Assembly: GCA_036387335.1 (NCBI GenBank)
Contig: DASVTZ010000205.1
Coordinates: 1 to 51,780 of the forward strand
Length of the DNA stretch: 51,780 bases
Direction: 5' to 3'
DNA from: Longimicrobium sp.
GTDB lineage: Bacteria > Gemmatimonadota > Gemmatimonadetes > Longimicrobiales > Longimicrobiaceae
The notes below the pieces were generated by a model. That model saw nothing but the letters and a program-made list of their open reading frames with translations. It was not told the origin of the DNA and ran no database searches. Of the stretch, positions 28,193-38,869 are shown piece by piece (position 1 is the first letter of the stretch; every line of letters begins with the position of its first letter). The position numbers were made by a program, and so were the translations under genes.

Positions 28193-30397
28193 TCACCCCC
28201 CCTGCGCCAGCATCTCCTTCATCCGCGCAAAGAAGTTCTCCTTCATCTCCTTGGCCTCCTCGGGCGCCAGCGAGGTGCGCGTCTGGCCGGAGCGGTGCTC
28301 GATGAGGTCCACCGGGATCTCCTTGAGGAAGCGCGACGGTTGGCGCGGGATGGAGCCGCCGCGCTGCTGGCGGGTGGCGCAGCCGGAAAGCGTCAGCCGG
28401 TGACGCGCCCGCGTGATCCCCACGTAGAACAAGCGCCGCTCCTCCGCGATCGGGTCGATCCCGTTCTCCTCCGTCTCCTCCGTCACGGCCTTCACGCTGC
28501 GCGAGTGCGGGAGGATCTCCTCCTCAAGGCCGATGATGAAGACGTGGGTGAACTCCAGCCCCTTGGCCGCGTGCATGGACATCAGCGTGACGCGGTCCGG
28601 CTCGTCCTCATCCTTGTCCTTTTTGTCGTCGTCCTCGCTGAGCGAGATGCGCTCCAGGAAGTCGCGCAGGGCGGGCGGGCTCCAGTCGTCCTCCTCGTCG
28701 GGGAGGGGCTGCGCGGTCCAGGTGCGCTCCTCGTAGGTGCCGATGGAAGCGATGAAATCGCGCAGGATCTCGACGCGCACCTCGGCGGCGCGCTCGCTCT
28801 TGGCGTTGTCGGCGCGCACGGCTTCTTCCAGGCGCAACCGCTTGACGGCGTCGCGGGCGAAGCCGCAGAGGGTGCGCTCCTCCACCTGGCCGGCGGCGAT
28901 GGCGGCCTCGGTGGCGCGGTACTCCACCTGCAGCTCCTCGATGGTCTCCACGAAGTGCTTCACCGGCTCGCGCTGCGCCCGGCTCACCGCCGCCACCTCG
29001 TCCACGTGCCGCATCGTCTCCCAGAGCGAGCGGCGGGCGTCGCGGGCGTCCTCCACGAGCTTCATCAGCGTGGTGCGCCCCACACCGCGCGTGGGGTAGT
29101 TGATGATGCGGCGGAGCGAGACCTCGTCGGCCGGGTTGATGATGACGCGCAGGTACGCCACCGCGTCCGCCACCTCCTTGCGGTCGAAGTAGCTCTGCCC
29201 GCCGATCACCCGGTAGGGGATGTTGGCCACGCGCAGCGCTTCCTCCACCGGCTTCGCCTGCAGGTTGGTGCGGTAGAGGACGGCGAAGTCGTTCCACTTG
29301 AGCTGCTCGTGCCAGCGGCGCACGCCGATCTCGCGCGCAACCATCTCCGCCTCCAGCTCCTCGGCGGTGCGCGCGGCCTCGTTGAACTCCCACAGGTCCA
29401 CCTTGGGGCCGGGGCCGTTTCCCGTGCGCAGCGTCTTCGCCTTGCGCGTGGCGTTGTTGCGGATGACGCCGTTGGCCGCCTCCAGGATGCGCTGCGTGGA
29501 GCGGTAGTTCTCCTCCATGATGACGACTTTGCACCCCGGGAACTGGCGCTCGAAGTCGAGGATGTTGCGCACGTCCGCGCCGCGCCAGGCGTAGATGGAC
29601 TGGTCGTCGTCGCCCACCACGCACAGGTTCTTGAGGGGACCGGCCAGGAGCCGCGCCATCTCCAGCTGCGCGCCGTTGGTGTCCTGGTACTCGTCGATCA
29701 TGATGTAGCGCCACCGCTTCCAGCACCGCTCGCGCACCTCGGCATCATCCTGCAGCAGCTTCACCGGGAGCAGAAGGAGGTCGTCGAAGTCGCAGGCGCC
29801 GGCCGCGCGCAGCGAAGCCTCGTAGCGCGGGTAGACGGCGGCGGCGAGCACGGCGTAGTCGTCCGTGCGGTTCCCCTGCACCATCCCCTCGGACACTTCG
29901 CGCGCGGCCGTGGCGGGGTCGATCATGCGGTTCTTCCAGTCGCCGATCTGGAAGAGGATCTTCTTGGCGTCGTACACGTCCTCGCCCGCGGTGGCGACGA
30001 CGTGCACCTCTTCGGCGATGATGCGCTTGACGATCTGCGCCTGGTCGCCGGTGGGGTAGATGGAGAAGTCCTTGGGGAGCCCGATGCGCGTGCCGTGCTC
30101 GCGCAGGAGCCGCGCGCCCAGCGAGTGAAAGGTGGAGAGGAGGACGCCCTTGGCCTCTTTCCCCACCAGCTTCGCCACGCGCTCCCGCATCTCCAGCGCG
30201 GCCTTGTTGGTGAAGGTGACGGCGAGGATGCTGCGCGGGTCCACCCCGGTGCGCAGCAGGTGCGCGATGCGGAAGACCAGCGTGCGCGTCTTGCCCGAGC
30301 CGGCGCCGGCCAGGATCAGGACGGGTCCCTGCGTGGCCAGCGCGGCCTCTCGCTGCTCGGGATTCAGGTCGCGCAGGTAGTGCGGAACGTGCTGCAA
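28193..30397 (-). CDS. UvrD/PcrA-type ATP-dependent DNA helicase
   Basis: 734 residues with superfamily 1A motifs in order: LNPEQREAAL (Q motif), Walker A AGAGSGKT, TFTNKAA (Ia), DEYQDTN (II), DDDQSIYAWRGAD (III), ENYRST (IV), MSMHAAKGLEF (V) and YVGITRARHRL (VI). It unwinds DNA 3'-5' in nucleotide excision or mismatch repair and in displacing RecA or stalled polymerase. An acidic, Lys/Asp-rich insert (SEDDDKKDKDEDEP) in the second half is a lineage-specific feature. It stands alone, bounded by repeats on both sides; UvrD and PcrA cannot be told apart here. Confidence 0.94.
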   Translation of the reverse strand: MQHVPHYLRDLNPEQREAALATQGPVLILAGAGSGKTRTLVFRIAHLLRTGVDPRSILAVTFTNKAALEMRERVAKLVGKEAKGVLLSTFHSLGARLLREHGTRIGLPKDFSIYPTGDQAQIVKRIIAEEVHVVATAGEDVYDAKKILFQIGDWKNRMIDPATAAREVSEGMVQGNRTDDYAVLAAAVYPRYEASLRAAGACDFDDLLLLPVKLLQDDAEVRERCWKRWRYIMIDEYQDTNGAQLEMARLLAGPLKNLCVVGDDDQSIYAWRGADVRNILDFERQFPGCKVVIMEENYRSTQRILEAANGVIRNNATRKAKTLRTGNGPGPKVDLWEFNEAARTAEELEAEMVAREIGVRRWHEQLKWNDFAVLYRTNLQAKPVEEALRVANIPYRVIGGQSYFDRKEVADAVAYLRVIINPADEVSLRRIINYPTRGVGRTTLMKLVEDARDARRSLWETMRHVDEVAAVSRAQREPVKHFVETIEELQVEYRATEAAIAAGQVEERTLCGFARDAVKRLRLEEAVRADNAKSERAAEVRVEILRDFIASIGTYEERTWTAQPLPDEEDDWSPPALRDFLERISLSEDDDKKDKDEDEPDRVTLMSMHAAKGLEFTHVFIIGLEEEILPHSRSVKAVTEETEENGIDPIAEERRLFYVGITRARHRLTLSGCATRQQRGGSIPRQPSRFLKEIPVDLIEHRSGQTRTSLAPEEAKEMKENFFARMKEMLAQGG

Positions 30398-30486
30398 ACG
30401 GGGCCGTGCGGTGCGGGATTCAAGGCTCTGGAACGGGGGCGGAAGATAACCCCCGCACCAGCGCGGCGGGTAGACCCGAACAGCAG

Positions 30487-30559
30487 TCTCACGCAGAGGC
30501 GCAGAGGCGCAGGAGAGAACAGCGGCGCCTTTCCCTGCGTCTCTGCGTCTCTGCGTGAG
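30487..30559. repeat. Family A hairpin repeat, copy 4
   Basis: Left arm TCTCACGCAGAGGCGCAGAG and right arm CTCTGCGTCTCTGCGTGAG, with a loop of about 30 nt. The arm sequence is intermediate between the CACAGAG and CGCGGAG types and has changed on both sides. It lies in the 304-nt gap between divergent helicase and acyl-CoA synthetase genes, upstream of the promoter at 30622. Confidence 0.8.
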
Positions 30560-30621
30560 CCATGCAGTTACGTCAACGCGCCTCCATGTGGGACCCGCAG
30601 TTTCACACGTTGGACAGCGGT

Positions 30622-30651
30622 TTGACGCGAGCGGGGGCGGGCGTGTATGTT
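30622..30651 (+). promoter_or_regulatory. Candidate promoter of the acyl-CoA synthetase gene
   Basis: TTGACG (30622-30627) and TATGTT (30646-30651) with an 18-bp spacer, giving a leader of about 45 nt before the start at 30702. Confidence 0.5.
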
Positions 30652-30701
30652 TGTCGCGTTCCGAACCCGGAACATGGCCGTATCACCCGCACGGAGGATC
30701 C

Positions 30702-32303
30702 ATGGCGCTACGCGACCGCTTCGGTGAGCTCACGGTGGCAGACAGCCTTGCGCTGCGAGCCCGCGAGAACCCGCAGCGGCCCTTTGTCGCCTTCGGAGAC
30801 CGACGGCTCAGCTACGCGCAGGTGGACGCCGGCTCGGACGCGCTCGCGGCGGCCCTGCACGAGCTGGGGATCGAGGCGGGCGACCGCGTGGCGCTCACCC
30901 TGCCCAGCTGGCCCGAGTTCGTGGTCGCCATCTTCGCGGCGGCCAAGCTGGGCGCCGTCATCGTGCCGCTCAACCCCAAGTTCACCTCGCCGGAGCTGCA
31001 GTACATGCTGCGGCACTCGGAGACGGCCGCCGTCATCACGGCCGAGAACTGGGACGGGGTGGACTACCTGGCCCGCTTCGAGGGCTTCCTGGCCGCCCTG
31101 CCGGACCTGCAGTACGTGGTCTCGGTGGGGGAGGAAGACCTCTGGTACGACGACCGGATCCACCAGTTCGAGGACCTGGTGTCCAGCGGCGAGGGGCGGC
31201 CCTACCCGCGCCACGAGGGAACGGCGGACGAGCTGTTCGCCATCCTGTACACCAGCGGCACCATGGGCAAGCCCAAGGGGGTGAGCCTGTCGCACCGCAA
31301 CCTCCTGGCGACCGCCGCGGCCACCGCGGACGTCATCGGGGTGGAAGAGGGCGACGTGGTGTTCGGCGTGGGCTCCGTCTTCAACGCCTTCGGGCTGGGG
31401 ATGGGGGTGCTGGGGACGATGGCCGCCGGTGCGTCGCTGGTGCTGCAGGAGCGCGACGACCCGGAGGAGGCGCTGCGCCTGCTGGAGAGCGAGCGGGTGA
31501 CGGTGTACCACGGCGTCCCCACCTCGTTCATCATGGCGATGCGCGAGCCCACCCGGGGCGAGCGCGACCTGGGCACGCTGCGCACGGGCGTGGTGGCCGG
31601 GGCGCCGGTTACGGAAGAGGTGGTGGGGCGCATCCGCGGCGGGCTGGTGCCGGGGATCTGCGTGGGGTACAGCCTCACCGAGACGGGGACGCTGGTGAGC
31701 GTCACCCGCCCCGGCGACCCGCCGGCCAAGCAGCTCACCACCGTTGGGCGCCCGCTGGACGGCACGGAGGTCGTGATCCTGGACACGCAGGACCGCAGCG
31801 TTCTCCCCGAAGAGTCGGTGGGGGAGATCGCGGTCCGCGGGCCGGGGGTGATGCAGGGGTACTACCGCCAGCCCGGCGAGACGGCCCAGGTGCTCACCGA
31901 AGACGGCTTCTTCACCACCGGCGACCTGGGGATGCTGGACGAGGAGGGTTTCCTCCACATCCTGGGGCGGCGCAAGGAGATGATCATCCGCGGCGGGTTC
32001 AACGTGTACCCCCGCGAGGTGGAAGACCGGCTCCACGCTCACCCCGCCGTGCTGGACGTGGCGGTGGTCGGGCTCCCGGACGAGGTCTTCGGAGAAGTAT
32101 CGTGCGCCTGTATCGTTCCCGTCGAGGGGGCGATCGTTACCGGCGGAGAGATCAAGGATTTCTGCCGTGAGGTGCTCGCGGACTACAAGGTCCCGGACCT
32201 GGTCCGCTTCCTCGACAGCTTTCCCATGACGGGGAGCGGCAAAGTGCGGCGCGTGGAGCTCGCGCGCATGATAAGCGCCGGCGAAAGCAGCCGACCACGA
32301 TGA
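30702..32303 (+). CDS. AMP-binding acyl-CoA synthetase/ligase
   Basis: 533 residues of the ANL superfamily. The P-loop LYTSGTMGKPKG is near 181-192; GYSLTETG (motif III), FTTGDLGMLDEEGFLHILGR with the conserved Asp, KEMIIRGGFNVYPREVE (hinge) and GSGKVRR with the C-terminal catalytic Lys follow. It activates a carboxylic acid as the adenylate and then the CoA thioester; the overall pattern suggests a fatty acid, but chain length cannot be read. GGAGG precedes the ATG. It stands alone. Confidence 0.9.
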   Translation: MALRDRFGELTVADSLALRARENPQRPFVAFGDRRLSYAQVDAGSDALAAALHELGIEAGDRVALTLPSWPEFVVAIFAAAKLGAVIVPLNPKFTSPELQYMLRHSETAAVITAENWDGVDYLARFEGFLAALPDLQYVVSVGEEDLWYDDRIHQFEDLVSSGEGRPYPRHEGTADELFAILYTSGTMGKPKGVSLSHRNLLATAAATADVIGVEEGDVVFGVGSVFNAFGLGMGVLGTMAAGASLVLQERDDPEEALRLLESERVTVYHGVPTSFIMAMREPTRGERDLGTLRTGVVAGAPVTEEVVGRIRGGLVPGICVGYSLTETGTLVSVTRPGDPPAKQLTTVGRPLDGTEVVILDTQDRSVLPEESVGEIAVRGPGVMQGYYRQPGETAQVLTEDGFFTTGDLGMLDEEGFLHILGRRKEMIIRGGFNVYPREVEDRLHAHPAVLDVAVVGLPDEVFGEVSCACIVPVEGAIVTGGEIKDFCREVLADYKVPDLVRFLDSFPMTGSGKVRRVELARMISAGESSRPR

Positions 32304-32433: not shown

Positions 32434-35400
32434 ATGAACAGTCCTTACAACAGCTGGTCCCCGCAGGCACAGCCCATGCAGCCGCCCACGCGCAGCGCGG
32501 CGCTGCTGATCGACTTCGACAACGTGACCCTCGGCGCCCACGGCGACCTGGGACGCGAGCTGCAGACCCTCCTCAACAACGAGGTCTTCCGCGGCAAGAT
32601 CGCGGTACGCCGCGCCTACGGCGACTGGCGGCGGTACCCCAACTACGTGGTGCCGCTTACCGAGGCCAACATCGACATGATCTGGGCGCCCTCGTGGGGG
32701 TCGTCCAAGAAGAACACCACCGACCTGCGCATGGCGATGGACGCGATGGAGCTCTGCTTCACGCGCCCGGACATGGGCACCTTCATCCTGCTGACCGGCG
32801 ACAGCGACTTCTCGAGCTGCGTGATGAAGCTCAAGGAGTACGGCAAGTACGTGATCGGCGTGGGGATGAAGGAGTCGGCCAGCGACCTGATCGTCAAGAA
32901 CTGCGACGAGTACTACTCGTACCACGCCCTCACCGGCCTGTCGCGCGCCAACATGGGCGAGGGGCCCACCGAGGACCCGTGGGTGCTGGTGGGCCGCGCG
33001 GCGCGGATGATGACCACGCGCGGCGACTCGATGCGGGTGGACCGCCTCAAGCAGGTGATGATCGAGCTGGATCCCGGTTTCGACGAGAAGAACGCGGGCT
33101 TCGGCAAGTTCAGCAAGTTCGTGCAGCGCGCGGGCGAGCGCGGCCTCATCCGCCTGCGCCGCGACGACGCCGGGCAGTTCGAGGTGATCGCGGTGGAGGA
33201 CGAAGGCACCGGCAGCGGCTTCGCGTCGCCGGTGGCGCCGCCGCGCGACCGTGATCGCGAGCGTGACCGGGACCGAGTGCGCGGCCGTGGACGCGACCGT
33301 GACCGTGGCCGTGGCCGCTCGGACCGCCCGCGCTTCGCAGACGCCCCCGCCGCCGACGCGGGTGCAGCGACGGACGAGCCGGATCTCGACTTCACGGTCG
33401 AAGTCCCGCGCCCGGCTGTTGCCGCCGAGGCGCCGCCGGTGGACCGCGCCGCGGAGCTGGATGCCGCGCCGCTCCCCCCGCGCGCCGCTCCCGCCGCCGA
33501 GGCCGCTCCGGCCGCCGCTCCCGCGGGTGGTCGCGGGCGGGGCCGTGGCCGTGGCCGCGCCGCCGCGCCAGGGATCACGCCGCCGCTCCTCCCGGGCCAG
33601 GTGCTGGACCTGACCGAGGTCGCCGGTGCCGTTCCGGAGACGGCTGCTCCGGCGGCCGAGACGCCCGCCCCAGCGCCCGCCGCCGTGGCCGCACCCGCCG
33701 AAGCGCCGGCCGCTCCCGAAGCGCCGCGCGCGGAAGCTCCCGCCGCCGAGGCTGCCGCACCGGCCGCGCGTGCCGAGGCTCCGGCCACGGGCCGCGCCGC
33801 CGATCCGCTGCGCAACGCGTACTCGCTTCTCCAGCACGCCACGCGCGCGCTGGTCCGCGGCCCCGGCCAGGCCGCGCGCGACGGCGACGTCAAGCGCCGC
33901 ATGCTGGAGATGCAGGCGGACTTCGACGAGGCGCCGCTCGGCTTCAGCAAGTTCAGCCGCTTCCTGCGCCAGGCCCACGAAGACAACGTGGTCGACCTGC
34001 GCCAGGTGGCGGAGGGCCGCTATGAAGTGGCGCTCCCGGCCGGCGGCGGGCGTCTCCCCGCGCCGGTGCTGAGCGCGGCGGCGGAGGGTGCTGCTCCCGC
34101 CGTCGCCGCCGAAACCGCTGCCGCTCCCGAGGCGGCTCCGGCCGGCGGACGTGGACGCGGGCGGGGCCGTGGACGCGGTGCGGCGGCGGGTGCTCCGCCG
34201 CTCCTCCCCGGCCAGGTGCTTGGCGGGGAGGCGGCCGCCGAGGCACCGGCTGCGCGCGTGGAAGAGGCTCCGGCTGCACCGGCTCCCGCGCCGGCCGCTG
34301 CCGTGCCCCCTGCACCGGGGCCCGCGCCGACGGCTCCGGCCGAGGTGGCGGCGCGCGGTGGGGTGCGTGGACGCGGACGCGGCGGGCGTGGTGCGCCGTC
34401 CGGCCCGCCGCCGCTCCTTCCGGGGCAGGTGATCGACGTCGCGGGGCTGGCCACGGCCGCCCCGCAGCCCGAGCCCGCCGCACCGGCCCCCGAAGCTCCC
34501 GCGGTGCAGCCCGCCGCGGCCGGCTTCGAGTTCCCCACCGACCGCGACGGCGCGCTGGCGTACCTGGGCGCCTACAAGGGCGTGGGGCGCAAGACGGCCG
34601 AGGCGCTGGTGGACACCTTTGGCGAGAACGTCTTCCGCGCGATGGAGGAAGACCCCGACGCCGTCCGCCAGCTCCTGGGCGACCGCCGTTCGGGCACCGT
34701 GCTCGACCAGTTCGCCGCCGATCCCAACCGTGCGCAGGCCCCGGAGGCTCAGCCGGAAGCCGCGCAGGCCGATTCCGCTGTGTCGGTTGCCGATACAACG
34801 GCGGCGGATACACCGGCTGATGATGCAGCGTCCGTTGATGTATTGGCCGACGAGGCACCGGTTGCTGGGGAGCCCTCGGGTGACGAGGGCGGTGAGGAGG
34901 ACGCGCGTCCGGCGCGCCGTTCACGCGGCCGCCGAGGCGGACGCGGGCGTGGGCGCGCGGCGGGCGAGGAGAGCGCCGCCGCGCCGGCGGAGGAGCCCGG
35001 CGAGACCGCCGCGGAGACCCCAGCTGCACTCGCCGAAGAGGTCATCGGCGACACCGATCCCACGCTGGTGGGCGAAGCGGTGACCGACGAGGCCACGACG
35101 CCCGTCCGTGCCGGTCGTGGCCGGGGTCGGGGCCGTGCGCGCGTGGACGAGGCGCCCAGCCCCGCCGCGCTCGCGGACGAGGTGGTGGGCGACACCGATC
35201 CCACGCTGGTGGAAACGGCCACCGTCGCGGACGATGCTCCCGCGGCCGAAGCGGCACCGCGCCGCCGGGGCCGGGGCCGTCCGCGCGCCGAAGCCGCTCC
35301 GGCAGCCGAGGCTCCTGCCCCGCCGGCCGAAGAACCGGCCGCTGCGGCACCCGCGGCCAAGCGCGGCCGTGGGCGGCCCCGTGCCGCGGCCGCTCCGCCT

Positions 35401-35538
35401 CCGGGTGAAGCGCCCGCGCCGGAGGCTCCGGTCCCCACTCCTCCCGCGCCCGAGGGTGACGCCGCCGCGCGTCGTGGGCGCCGAGGCGGGCGGGGGCGTG
35501 GCCGTGCGCGTGGCGGCAACGGCACGCCGGCGGAGTGA
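32434..35538 (+). CDS. NYN-nuclease/LOTUS protein with RG-rich disordered regions
   Basis: 1034 residues. An N-terminal NYN (LabA-like PIN) domain, about 20-165, keeps the acidic site: Asp27 and Asp29 in LLIDFDN, Asp97 in TTDLRMA, and Asp123/Asp125 in LTGDSDF. Two OST-HTH/LOTUS domains follow at about 181-252 (DPWVLVGRAARMM to FEVI) and 461-531 (NAYSLLQHATRAL to YEVAL), then a helix-hairpin-helix-like unit at about 705-750 (YKGVGRKTAEALV). Between and after are long Ala/Pro- and Arg/Gly-rich stretches: three GRGRG blocks each followed by LLPGQV, two DTDPTLV repeats, and two AT-hook-like RGRGRPR motifs near the C-terminus. A likely RNase with RNA-binding domains; MARF1 in animals pairs NYN with LOTUS similarly. 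The target is unknown. Confidence 0.85.
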   Translation: MNSPYNSWSPQAQPMQPPTRSAALLIDFDNVTLGAHGDLGRELQTLLNNEVFRGKIAVRRAYGDWRRYPNYVVPLTEANIDMIWAPSWGSSKKNTTDLRMAMDAMELCFTRPDMGTFILLTGDSDFSSCVMKLKEYGKYVIGVGMKESASDLIVKNCDEYYSYHALTGLSRANMGEGPTEDPWVLVGRAARMMTTRGDSMRVDRLKQVMIELDPGFDEKNAGFGKFSKFVQRAGERGLIRLRRDDAGQFEVIAVEDEGTGSGFASPVAPPRDRDRERDRDRVRGRGRDRDRGRGRSDRPRFADAPAADAGAATDEPDLDFTVEVPRPAVAAEAPPVDRAAELDAAPLPPRAAPAAEAAPAAAPAGGRGRGRGRGRAAAPGITPPLLPGQVLDLTEVAGAVPETAAPAAETPAPAPAAVAAPAEAPAAPEAPRAEAPAAEAAAPAARAEAPATGRAADPLRNAYSLLQHATRALVRGPGQAARDGDVKRRMLEMQADFDEAPLGFSKFSRFLRQAHEDNVVDLRQVAEGRYEVALPAGGGRLPAPVLSAAAEGAAPAVAAETAAAPEAAPAGGRGRGRGRGRGAAAGAPPLLPGQVLGGEAAAEAPAARVEEAPAAPAPAPAAAVPPAPGPAPTAPAEVAARGGVRGRGRGGRGAPSGPPPLLPGQVIDVAGLATAAPQPEPAAPAPEAPAVQPAAAGFEFPTDRDGALAYLGAYKGVGRKTAEALVDTFGENVFRAMEEDPDAVRQLLGDRRSGTVLDQFAADPNRAQAPEAQPEAAQADSAVSVADTTAADTPADDAASVDVLADEAPVAGEPSGDEGGEEDARPARRSRGRRGGRGRGRAAGEESAAAPAEEPGETAAETPAALAEEVIGDTDPTLVGEAVTDEATTPVRAGRGRGRGRARVDEAPSPAALADEVVGDTDPTLVETATVADDAPAAEAAPRRRGRGRPRAEAAPAAEAPAPPAEEPAAAAPAAKRGRGRPRAAAAPPPGEAPAPEAPVPTPPAPEGDAAARRGRRGGRGRGRARGGNGTPAE

Positions 35539-36194
35539 TGCACGACGGCACTGAACGGAGCGCCGCGTCCGGGTCCGCCCGGGCGCGGCGCTCCGCCGTT
35601 GTGGAGCCGGCGCCGCTCCCCCTCTCCTTCTACGACCGCCCCGCCGACGTCGTCGCGCGCGAGATGCTCGGCGCGCTGATCGTGTCGGAGGTGGGCGGGC
35701 GGCGCGTAGCGGGCGAGATCATGGAGACGGAGGCGTACACGGGTCCCGACGACGAAGCCTCGCACGCGCACATCCGCTTCGGGCGCACGGAGCGCAACGA
35801 TCCGATGTTCGGGCGCGCCGGCACCGCGTACGTCTACCTGATCTACGGGATGCACTGGTGCATCAACGTGGCGACGGGCGCGGAAGGCTTCCCCGCCGCC
35901 GTGCTGATCCGCGCCGCGCGTCCGGTGGAGGGGGTCGAGATCGCCCGCGAGCGGCGCCCCGGCCGGCCCGACCACGAGCTGATGCGCGGTCCGGGCAATC
36001 TCGCCCGCGCCCTCGCCATCGACCGCACGCAGAACCGCGGCATGGTGGACGGTCCGCCCCTCTGGTTCGCCCCGGGCACACCTATTCCCGACGCCGACGT
36101 GGCGGCCGGCCCGCGCATCGGCATCAAGCGCGCCGCCGATGCCCCGCTGCGGTTCTGGCTGCGCGGCAGCATCTGGGTCTCTGGCAAGCGGTAA
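35538..36194 (+). CDS. 3-methyladenine DNA glycosylase (AAG/Mpg family)
   Basis: 218 residues. The family pattern is clear: FYDRPADVVAREMLG, then IMETEAYTGPDDEASHA with the catalytic Glu region, TERNDPMFGRAGTAYVYLIYGMHWCINVAT, and LMRGPGNLARALAID. It excises alkylated purines to start base-excision repair. Its ATG shares one base with the stop of the NYN/LOTUS gene (TGATG), so the two are probably co-translated. A GTG three nt upstream is an alternative start. The first ~25 residues are low-complexity and not part of the fold. Confidence 0.9.
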   Translation: MHDGTERSAASGSARARRSAVVEPAPLPLSFYDRPADVVAREMLGALIVSEVGGRRVAGEIMETEAYTGPDDEASHAHIRFGRTERNDPMFGRAGTAYVYLIYGMHWCINVATGAEGFPAAVLIRAARPVEGVEIARERRPGRPDHELMRGPGNLARALAIDRTQNRGMVDGPPLWFAPGTPIPDADVAAGPRIGIKRAADAPLRFWLRGSIWVSGKR

Positions 36195-36327: not shown

Positions 36328-36356
36328 GTAGGGGCAGACCCACGTGTCTGCCCGTG
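36328..36356. repeat. Family D palindrome (GTAGGGGC), single copy
   Basis: GTAGGGGCAGA with its complement GTCTGCCC and a trailing GTG, the same type as the unit at 13230. It is the only repeat seen in the 236-nt gap between the glycosylase and the TonB receptor; a small TTGCC/GGCAA hairpin is at 36203-36217. Confidence 0.7.
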
Positions 36357-36430
36357 CCATCCGCCGCGCCGTCGCCAGGGGGTCCATCGGGATCTCCGCC
36401 GTGCACACGAACGCACCACCGCGATCCACC

Positions 36431-38869
36431 ATGAAGATCCTCGCCCGACTTCTTATCCCCTTCCTCCTGGTGCTCGCGGCCAGCGCTTCGGCCCAGGAGC
36501 GCCCCGTGGCCGGCATCCAGGGGCGCGTCGTGGCGGCGGAGACGTCGCGGCCGCTGGCGGGCGTGGCGGTCGTGGCGCGCCTGCAGACGGATACGGTGCC
36601 GGCGGGGCGCGGCGTGTCCGGGGCGGACGGGCGCTACCGGATCGCGGGGCTCGCGCCGGGAAGCTACGTGGTGCGCGCCACCCACACCGGCCGCCAGACC
36701 ACGCAGTCGGAGCCGGTCGTCGTCTCCGCCGGGATGGCGGCCGCGGGCGACCTGAAGATGGCGGCCGTGGTGGCGCTGGAGGGGCTGCAGGTGCGCGCCG
36801 AGCGGCCTCCCGTGGTCCACGCCGAAGACCGCAACGTGTACAGCGTCAAGGACATGCCCGCGGCTGTCGGCGGCGCGGCGGACGTGTTGCGCACGCTGCC
36901 GGAGCTGGAGGTGGACCTCAACGGCAACATCAAGATGGTGGGGAACCGCCCCGTCACCATCCACATCAACGGCCGCCCCTCACCCCTCAGAGGCGAGGCG
37001 CTCACCGAGTTCATCCGCAACCTCCCCGCGGACCGCATCGACCGCATCGAGGTGATCCCCAACCCCTCCGTCCGCTTCGAGGGCGGCGACGGGGCCATCG
37101 TCAACATCGTGCTGCGCAAGGGCGTGGAGCTGGGGCTGGGCGGAAGCGTGTCGCTGAACGCAGCCACCCGAGGCGGCAACGGCCTCTCGGGGCAGATCGC
37201 CTATCAGCGTGGCAAGCTGACGCTGTTCGGCGGCGGGAGCAGCCGGTTGATGAACTACGACGACGCCTCGCGCGAGCTGCGGCAGAACCTGCTCGCCACC
37301 CCCGTCACCTTTCTGGACCAGGACCGGCGCGGCTCCGGCAACAACTTCCACGGAAGCGCGGACCTCACGGCCGAACTCGCGGTGGGAAAGATCGAGACGC
37401 TCTGGGCCTCCGCCAGCGCGTACCGCGGAGGATGGGGCAACGAGAGCTTCTCGCACAACCAGATTCTGGACGCGGACAGCGCCCCCACGCGCATCTACGA
37501 CCGCGTGGGCGACTACGAGAGCGACTTCCTGGCGACGGATCTGGCGCTCGGCTTCCGGCGCATCGTGGAGGCGCAGCGGCACGAGCTCTCGGTGGAGGTG
37601 CGCAGGAGCGGCTCCGGCGACGAGAACACCGGGCGCGTGGAGGAGATCACCACCATGCGCACGGTGGAGACCGGCGACCCCCTCTCCGAGCTGCGCCTGA
37701 CGGGCGGCGGCGAGGACCGCACGAGCCTCACGGCCAAGGCGGACTACATGCGCCCGCTGCCGGGGAAGGGGCGCGTGGAGATCGGGGTGCGCACCAGCCT
37801 CGAAGACCAGGCGAACGAGCAGACGCTGCGCCACTTCGCCCCCTTCGACGCGGGCGATCCGCGCCAGGTGACGGACGTGTCGTACACCTTTGGGCAGACG
37901 CAGCACTCGGCCTACACCAACCTGAGCCACAAGATCGGGCGCCTGTCGCTGCAGGGCGGCCTGCGCGCGGAGATGACGACGCTGGACCTGGCGCCGCGGC
38001 TGGAGAACGCGCAGCCGGGCTTCGAGCGCGACTTCTTCTCCATCCTCCCGAGCGCCAACCTGAGCTTCGAGTTCAAGCCGGGGCGCACGATGCGGGTCAA
38101 CTACTCCCGGCGGGAGCGCCGCCCGTGGATCTGGGACCTCAACCCGTACGTCACGCAGAGCGATCCGCTGAACGTGCGCCTGGGGAACCCCGACCTGGAG
38201 CCCGCCGCCACCCACTCGCTCGGCGGCGACCTGAGCTGGCGCACGCGCGTGGCGACGCTGCGCCTGGCGCCGTACTTCCGCCGCACCAGCAACGAAGTGG
38301 AGTACATCCGCACCGTGAGCGCGGCGGGCGTGGCCACGACCATCCCGCAGAACCTGGCGGTGGTCGAAACCTACGGCGGCAGCCTCAACGCGTCGCTGTC
38401 GCCGGCGCGGTGGGGGAACGCCTCGGCATCGGTAGGCGCGAGCCACGACGAGCGCGACGCCGGTGCCCTCGGGAGCGCCTACTCGCGCAGCGGGAGCAAC
38501 TACTTCTTCACCGCCAACTCCACGCTGCAGCCGGGGCGCGGCTGGGGGATCCAGGCGTCGCTGCGACTCAACTCGCCGCGAGAGTCGGTGCAGGGGCGCT
38601 ATTCGTCGACGCCCTGGACGGAGCTGGGGATCCGCAAGGAGCTGTTCAACCGCAAGGCATCGATGAACATCCGCCTCGCGGACCCCTTCGACATCTACCG
38701 CACGCGCTTCACCTCGCGCGACCCCAGCTTCGCGGGAACGTCGCAGAGCCGCTCGTCGTGGGGCGGGCGCAGCGCGAGCCTGAGCCTGACCTACCGCTTC
38801 GGCAAGCCGCCGGAGCGCAAGAGCACCCAGACCGACGGCCCGCCGACGGGCGGCGGCGGGCCGCCCTGA
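36431..38869 (+). CDS. TonB-dependent outer membrane receptor
   Basis: 812 residues. A signal peptide (ASAQ cleavage near 21) leads to a carboxypeptidase-regulatory-like domain (about 28-110), a plug domain (about 125-225, with GGAADVLRTLPELEVDLNGNI, RPVTIHINGRPSP and RIEVIPNPSVRFEGGDGAIVNIVL) and an outer-membrane barrel (about 240-795) with many alternating strands. The overall pattern is that of barrel receptors lacking a SusD partner. The C-terminal tail after LTYRFG is Pro/Gly-rich and unusual, since barrels normally end in an aromatic residue. No regulator or partner lipoprotein is adjacent, so the substrate is unknown. Confidence 0.85.
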   Translation: MKILARLLIPFLLVLAASASAQERPVAGIQGRVVAAETSRPLAGVAVVARLQTDTVPAGRGVSGADGRYRIAGLAPGSYVVRATHTGRQTTQSEPVVVSAGMAAAGDLKMAAVVALEGLQVRAERPPVVHAEDRNVYSVKDMPAAVGGAADVLRTLPELEVDLNGNIKMVGNRPVTIHINGRPSPLRGEALTEFIRNLPADRIDRIEVIPNPSVRFEGGDGAIVNIVLRKGVELGLGGSVSLNAATRGGNGLSGQIAYQRGKLTLFGGGSSRLMNYDDASRELRQNLLATPVTFLDQDRRGSGNNFHGSADLTAELAVGKIETLWASASAYRGGWGNESFSHNQILDADSAPTRIYDRVGDYESDFLATDLALGFRRIVEAQRHELSVEVRRSGSGDENTGRVEEITTMRTVETGDPLSELRLTGGGEDRTSLTAKADYMRPLPGKGRVEIGVRTSLEDQANEQTLRHFAPFDAGDPRQVTDVSYTFGQTQHSAYTNLSHKIGRLSLQGGLRAEMTTLDLAPRLENAQPGFERDFFSILPSANLSFEFKPGRTMRVNYSRRERRPWIWDLNPYVTQSDPLNVRLGNPDLEPAATHSLGGDLSWRTRVATLRLAPYFRRTSNEVEYIRTVSAAGVATTIPQNLAVVETYGGSLNASLSPARWGNASASVGASHDERDAGALGSAYSRSGSNYFFTANSTLQPGRGWGIQASLRLNSPRESVQGRYSSTPWTELGIRKELFNRKASMNIRLADPFDIYRTRFTSRDPSFAGTSQSRSSWGGRSASLSLTYRFGKPPERKSTQTDGPPTGGGGPP

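Follow-up and report, generated by a model that had tools for sequence, protein, structure and literature searches.

The window analyzed here is a stretch of 51,780 nucleotides from a Longimicrobium sp. genome (Gemmatimonadota; contig DASVTZ010000205.1), and it encodes a 1034-amino acid protein (32434–35538, plus strand) in which an NYN nuclease domain, two LOTUS (OST-HTH) domains, and a helix-hairpin-helix (HhH) domain are joined by long disordered arms. We tentatively favor the view that this protein is a MARF1-like endoribonuclease that docks a partner through its disordered arm and works alongside alkylation repair, the last part being suggested by the pairing of its gene with one for methylpurine-DNA glycosylase (MPG). 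The open reading frame has exactly the coordinates given in the original prediction, which had been made from the sequence alone, and it encodes a real protein, as it carries recognizable domains and is under purifying selection along its length. Compared with two congeners, the ratio of nonsynonymous to synonymous differences (pN/pS) is 0.04–0.10 in the region spanning NYN and the first LOTUS domain (the NYN-LOTUS1 core) and 0.18–0.38 in the disordered parts, which are therefore coding as well.

Both domain searches and structure prediction bear out the NYN and double LOTUS assignment, which had previously rested on pattern reading. The NYN (LK-nuclease) domain occupies residues 22–162 (32497–32919; Pfam PF01936, 6e-22) and OST-HTH was matched in two stretches (PF12872, 1.3e-8), both above the curated cut-offs, while profile searches placed the LOTUS domains at residues 183–251 (32980–33186) and 459–535 (33808–34038). 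Two LOTUS domains are present in every full-length ortholog examined. The acidic site is intact, with D27, D29, N30, D97, D103, D123, and D125 identical in 59/59 aligned orthologs, and this set includes every aspartate that the original prediction had named. An AlphaFold2 model of residues 18–262 (mean predicted local confidence, pLDDT, of 78) gave as its top Foldseek match VPA0982 (2qip, 5.9e-7), followed by the MARF1 NYN domains of human and mouse (4.7e-5 to 4.7e-4; structure 6fdl at 4.7e-5 with 16% identity) and, more weakly, the OST-HTH/LOTUS structures 2kpm, 2lh9, and 3rco, so that the proposed likeness to animal MARF1 is supported. In a second model, of residues 451–764, LOTUS2 and the HhH domain had a pLDDT of about 90 and the linker between them fell below 50; Foldseek searches with this model, which is half disordered, gave weak winged-helix matches (including the TDRD7 LOTUS domain), none of them at or below 0.001. 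Because of the NYN fold and the invariant acidic residues, and by analogy to MARF1, RNA cleavage is the likely activity of this protein.

The NYN-LOTUS1 core was found in 189 of 200 Gemmatimonadota genomes and 84 of 91 genera, with roughly 60% identity across families, and was not found in four sampled genomes of another class. A metagenome-assembled genome named Longimicrobium is 98% identical over 260 residues, which places the genome under study near that genus. One apparent absence (genome G123) looks like a contig break, as what appears to be the end of the nuclease gene precedes MPG at the start of a contig. The genome under study has five further NYN matches above the Pfam cut-off (L002–L006, on contigs C211, C185 twice, C26, and C59), which sit in open frames of about 250–325 amino acids. 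Relatives of the core also occur on 221 plasmid records, mostly from Klebsiella and Vibrio, and in 78 of these a single place covers at least 80% of the core.

The most consistent neighbor of the nuclease gene lies downstream. In the window, MPG (35538–36194, plus strand; Pfam PF02245, 7.2e-63) begins within the stop codon of the nuclease gene, as the TGA at 35536–35538 overlaps the likely ATG at 35538–35540 to form TGATG, and similar overlaps were seen in several other genomes. To count the pairing, the listed positions of both families were compared across the phylum sample. Where the two were listed on one contig, MPG followed the nuclease on the same strand in every case (115/115 genomes), at 0.65–2.5 kb from the NYN-LOTUS1 match, a distance consistent with the next gene. 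In the remaining seven genomes the two were on different contigs, with the nuclease mostly near a contig end. BLAST clustering had given an MPG linkage of only 27/55, which was a threshold effect put right by the Pfam search. Upstream, an acyl-CoA synthetase-like gene (AMP-binding enzyme; 30555–32303, plus strand; PF00501, 4.2e-89) is present in 43 of 55 loci, and the genes beyond these immediate neighbors vary between families; across the group, no other neighbor is paired with the nuclease as strongly as MPG. This pairing hints at a connection between RNA and DNA handling and suggests use during alkylation damage.

The domains are joined by about 636–650 disordered residues, and complete orthologs span 443 to 1139 residues, a difference made up mostly of disordered sequence. 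Arm 1 (33187–33807) is rich in alanine, proline, arginine, and glycine, arm 2 (34039–34539) has a pLDDT below 50, and arm 3 (34717–35535) forms an RG-rich tail. The RG-rich character described in the original prediction is well founded, as residues 263–1034 contain 72 RG/GR pairs against 19.6 +/- 4.0 in shuffles, and RG density peaks in the window's own family. A single patch of the arms is conserved, consisting of (L/I)RxRRGxRGR, a short spacer, and PPPLLxGQ, and it is sited between LOTUS2 and the HhH domain. We built a profile of this linear motif from five sequences and scored it on 57 orthologs and 1140 shuffled regions; it exceeded 10 bits in 29 orthologs (five of them the seeds), and none of the shuffled regions exceeded 7 bits. 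The protein in the window holds three copies, at 33580–33601 in arm 1 and at 34195–34216 and 34408–34429 in arm 2, the last at the conserved site. These are the only three matches to PPLLPGQV in the genome, and PPLLPGQ does not occur outside the nuclease gene in its 5.8 Mb. Some families retain the RRGxRGR half only. In four orthologs of the clade that lacks the HhH domain (L106, L110, L114, and L115), a PPxxLLxVGVV- or PPxLL-like stretch follows an RG-rich patch at the position of PPPLLxGQ; judged by eye, it is possibly a diverged form of the motif.

Of the two repeats pointed out earlier, LLPGQV (three copies) proved to be part of this conserved motif, while DTDPTLV (two copies, at 35050 and 35191) is confined to part of the genus and, within the genome, to the nuclease gene, and was rejected as a core motif. 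The AT-hook-like character proposed for the two RGRPR motifs of arm 3 did not hold up either: RGRPR is sporadic among orthologs, GRPR occurs in only a handful of them, and a Pfam scan gave no AT-hook match.

Such arms raise the possibility that the protein is a general RNA-decay hub forming ribonucleoprotein condensates like the bacterial ribonucleoprotein bodies (BR-bodies) of RNase E, with the MPG pairing reflecting incidental co-transcription. RG enrichment and the length of the disordered arms, which carry a docking-type motif, are in keeping with this, and RNase E condensates are established elsewhere. A scaffold role also appears to be left free in relatives, where RNase E/G homologs are mostly 500–700 amino acids and RNase Y is about 530 amino acids. 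However, the arms hold only five aromatic residues in about 636, so condensation through arginine-aromatic contacts alone is unlikely and RNA would probably be needed; moreover, the putative docking motif has no known partner, and no other neighbor matches the fixed pairing with MPG across the group. We therefore regard a general decay hub as possible but rather improbable.

The "HhH-like unit" of the original prediction is a real conserved domain at residues 703–761 (34540–34716; pLDDT about 90). The NCBIfam model TIGR01448 (RecD2) matched 48 residues of it at 1.2e-5, well short of the model's own cut-off, and this partial match thus marks the HhH only; a profile of the C-terminal half also matched the HhH of XPF at 0.006. 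The domain is present in 42 of 54 orthologs and absent from one clade, represented by the sampled families f4 and f5. This distribution is explained by a single change on the core tree (support 99/97), which is unrooted and compatible with either gain or loss. The spread of this HhH variant outside the phylum was covered by one scan of a genome collection, and the matches listed there were all from Gemmatimonadota.

This domain brings up a second alternative, namely that the protein is mainly a DNA-repair nuclease, a PIN/FEN superfamily member that would act, together with its HhH, on MPG-made intermediates (abasic sites, flaps, or R-loops). The MPG pairing, the resemblance to the DNA-binding HhH domains of RecD2 and XPF, and a UvrD-like helicase gene nearby in the window's family all fit this idea, but its closest structural matches are NYN domains of the RNase type, RNA binding is predicted or known for LOTUS domains (PMC2848206), and the pairing with MPG persists in the clade that has no HhH. 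On balance, we find a primarily DNA-directed role unlikely, although it is, with the decay hub, one of the two main rivals of the reading that we favor. Judged from its distribution and gene position, a defense or toxin-type RNase is highly improbable: smaller NYN proteins are widespread on plasmids (the 221 records above) and RNases are frequent in conflict systems, but this gene is near-universal, strongly conserved, and fixed beside MPG, while defense genes are usually patchy.

Returning to the MARF1-like endoribonuclease that we favor, a plausible way of working can be outlined. The NYN domain would cleave RNA through a metal-dependent acidic pocket, while the two LOTUS domains, a type of domain that binds G-rich and G-quadruplex RNA, would grip RNA that is structured or rich in G. 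The RG-rich arm, by its length, is expected to increase RNA affinity and to display RRGxRGR...PPPLLxGQ as a putative docking site for a partner, much as the C-terminal region of MARF1 recruits other proteins. As RNase E/G homologs in relatives are mostly shorter, this protein is the longer-armed RNase candidate. The HhH domain would provide an extra nucleic-acid contact, possibly with DNA, which may bring its activity close to the chromosome. The nuclease is probably co-produced with MPG, which makes a role in RNA clearing or quality control under nucleic-acid alkylation likely, with MPG repairing the DNA. A more elaborate version, which we consider doubtful, is a two-gene stress unit found throughout the group, in which the MARF1-like RNase removes RNA that is alkylated or held in R-loops close to the chromosome, the translationally coupled MPG repairs DNA, and the disordered arm assembles an RNA-repair body by way of the PPPLLxGQ docking motif.

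Several observations weigh against the reading that we favor. MPG occurs without the nuclease in two genomes of family f8, and the nuclease occurs without MPG in some genomes, so the pair is not obligatory, and shared regulation could be all that lies behind it. Several families have lost the linear motif or keep half of it, and the HhH domain is missing from an entire clade.

The papers found say little on the cellular role of bacterial NYN-LOTUS proteins, and here is one, near-universal in its group, whose coupled neighbor directs attention to alkylation damage as a process open to testing, and whose conserved putative docking motif could be used as bait for partners. For MARF1-like RNases, it also provides a case in bacteria with which their use of LOTUS domains and of a disordered tail can be compared.

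Two other genes around this locus can be mentioned. A UvrD/PcrA-like helicase gene (about 28193–30682, minus strand), recognized by eye from a cluster relative, points away from the block and is conserved in the window's family. On the other side, 36344–38869 encodes a TonB-dependent receptor-like outer-membrane protein with a carboxypeptidase-regulatory-like domain.

Among known systems, RNase E with its degradosome and BR-bodies is similar in manner of working, as it is an endoribonuclease with a long disordered arm and short docking motifs (putative in our protein), but its catalytic domain is unrelated: Pfam and NCBIfam scans of the nuclease protein found no RNase E/G catalytic domain, and the genome has a separate RNase E/G gene on another contig. 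In one relative, the RNase E/G match (G008:C72:78465-79707) is fragmented by in-frame TGA stops, representing either a draft-assembly error or decay. With RecD2 and XPF the protein shares an HhH sequence of the GVGxKTAExLVxxFG type, but this small domain is all that they have in common, and it has neither a helicase nor an XPF nuclease domain. VPA0982 of Vibrio (PDB 2qip) has the same NYN fold and is the best sequence match (4.4e-6), but its solved chain consists of the nuclease domain only (165 residues).

The animal protein MARF1 (limkain b1) likewise has an NYN domain followed by several LOTUS domains. The NYN domain of human MARF1 is a demonstrated endoribonuclease, and MARF1 recruits decapping factors through the 172 residues at its C-terminus (PMC6294520). 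Nevertheless, MARF1 has eight LOTUS domains, with two RNA recognition motifs between them and the NYN domain, and no named HhH, whereas a Pfam scan of our protein found no RNA recognition motif and it has two LOTUS domains only; it therefore resembles MARF1 without being a member. Bacterial and eukaryotic OST-HTH also fall into two distinct families (PMC2848206). The original prediction considered a large, multivalent RNA-binding nuclease of this kind unusual in bacteria, but this is not supported for the core, as an NYN domain joined to OST-HTH in one or two copies has been known as the stereotypic bacterial arrangement since 2010: in the study of Anantharaman, Zhang & Aravind, which also predicted RNA binding by LOTUS domains, almost all bacterial OST-HTH proteins had one or two copies fused to an LK-nuclease (DUF88/NYN), and the further fusions named were S1/cold-shock, Zn-knuckle, and DUF2384, with HhH not among them (PMC2848206). 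The open-access literature that we searched described neither such an HhH nor the linear motif, and neither the near-universality in this group nor the strict MPG pairing; nothing relevant turned up on NYN together with methyladenine glycosylase or on LOTUS domains in Gemmatimonadetes. Our protein thus shares with its bacterial relatives an N-terminal NYN-type nuclease followed by OST-HTH domains, and what it adds to the 2010 layout is only the HhH domain, the long RG-rich arm of several hundred disordered residues, the linear motif, the fixed MPG neighbor, and near-universality in its group.
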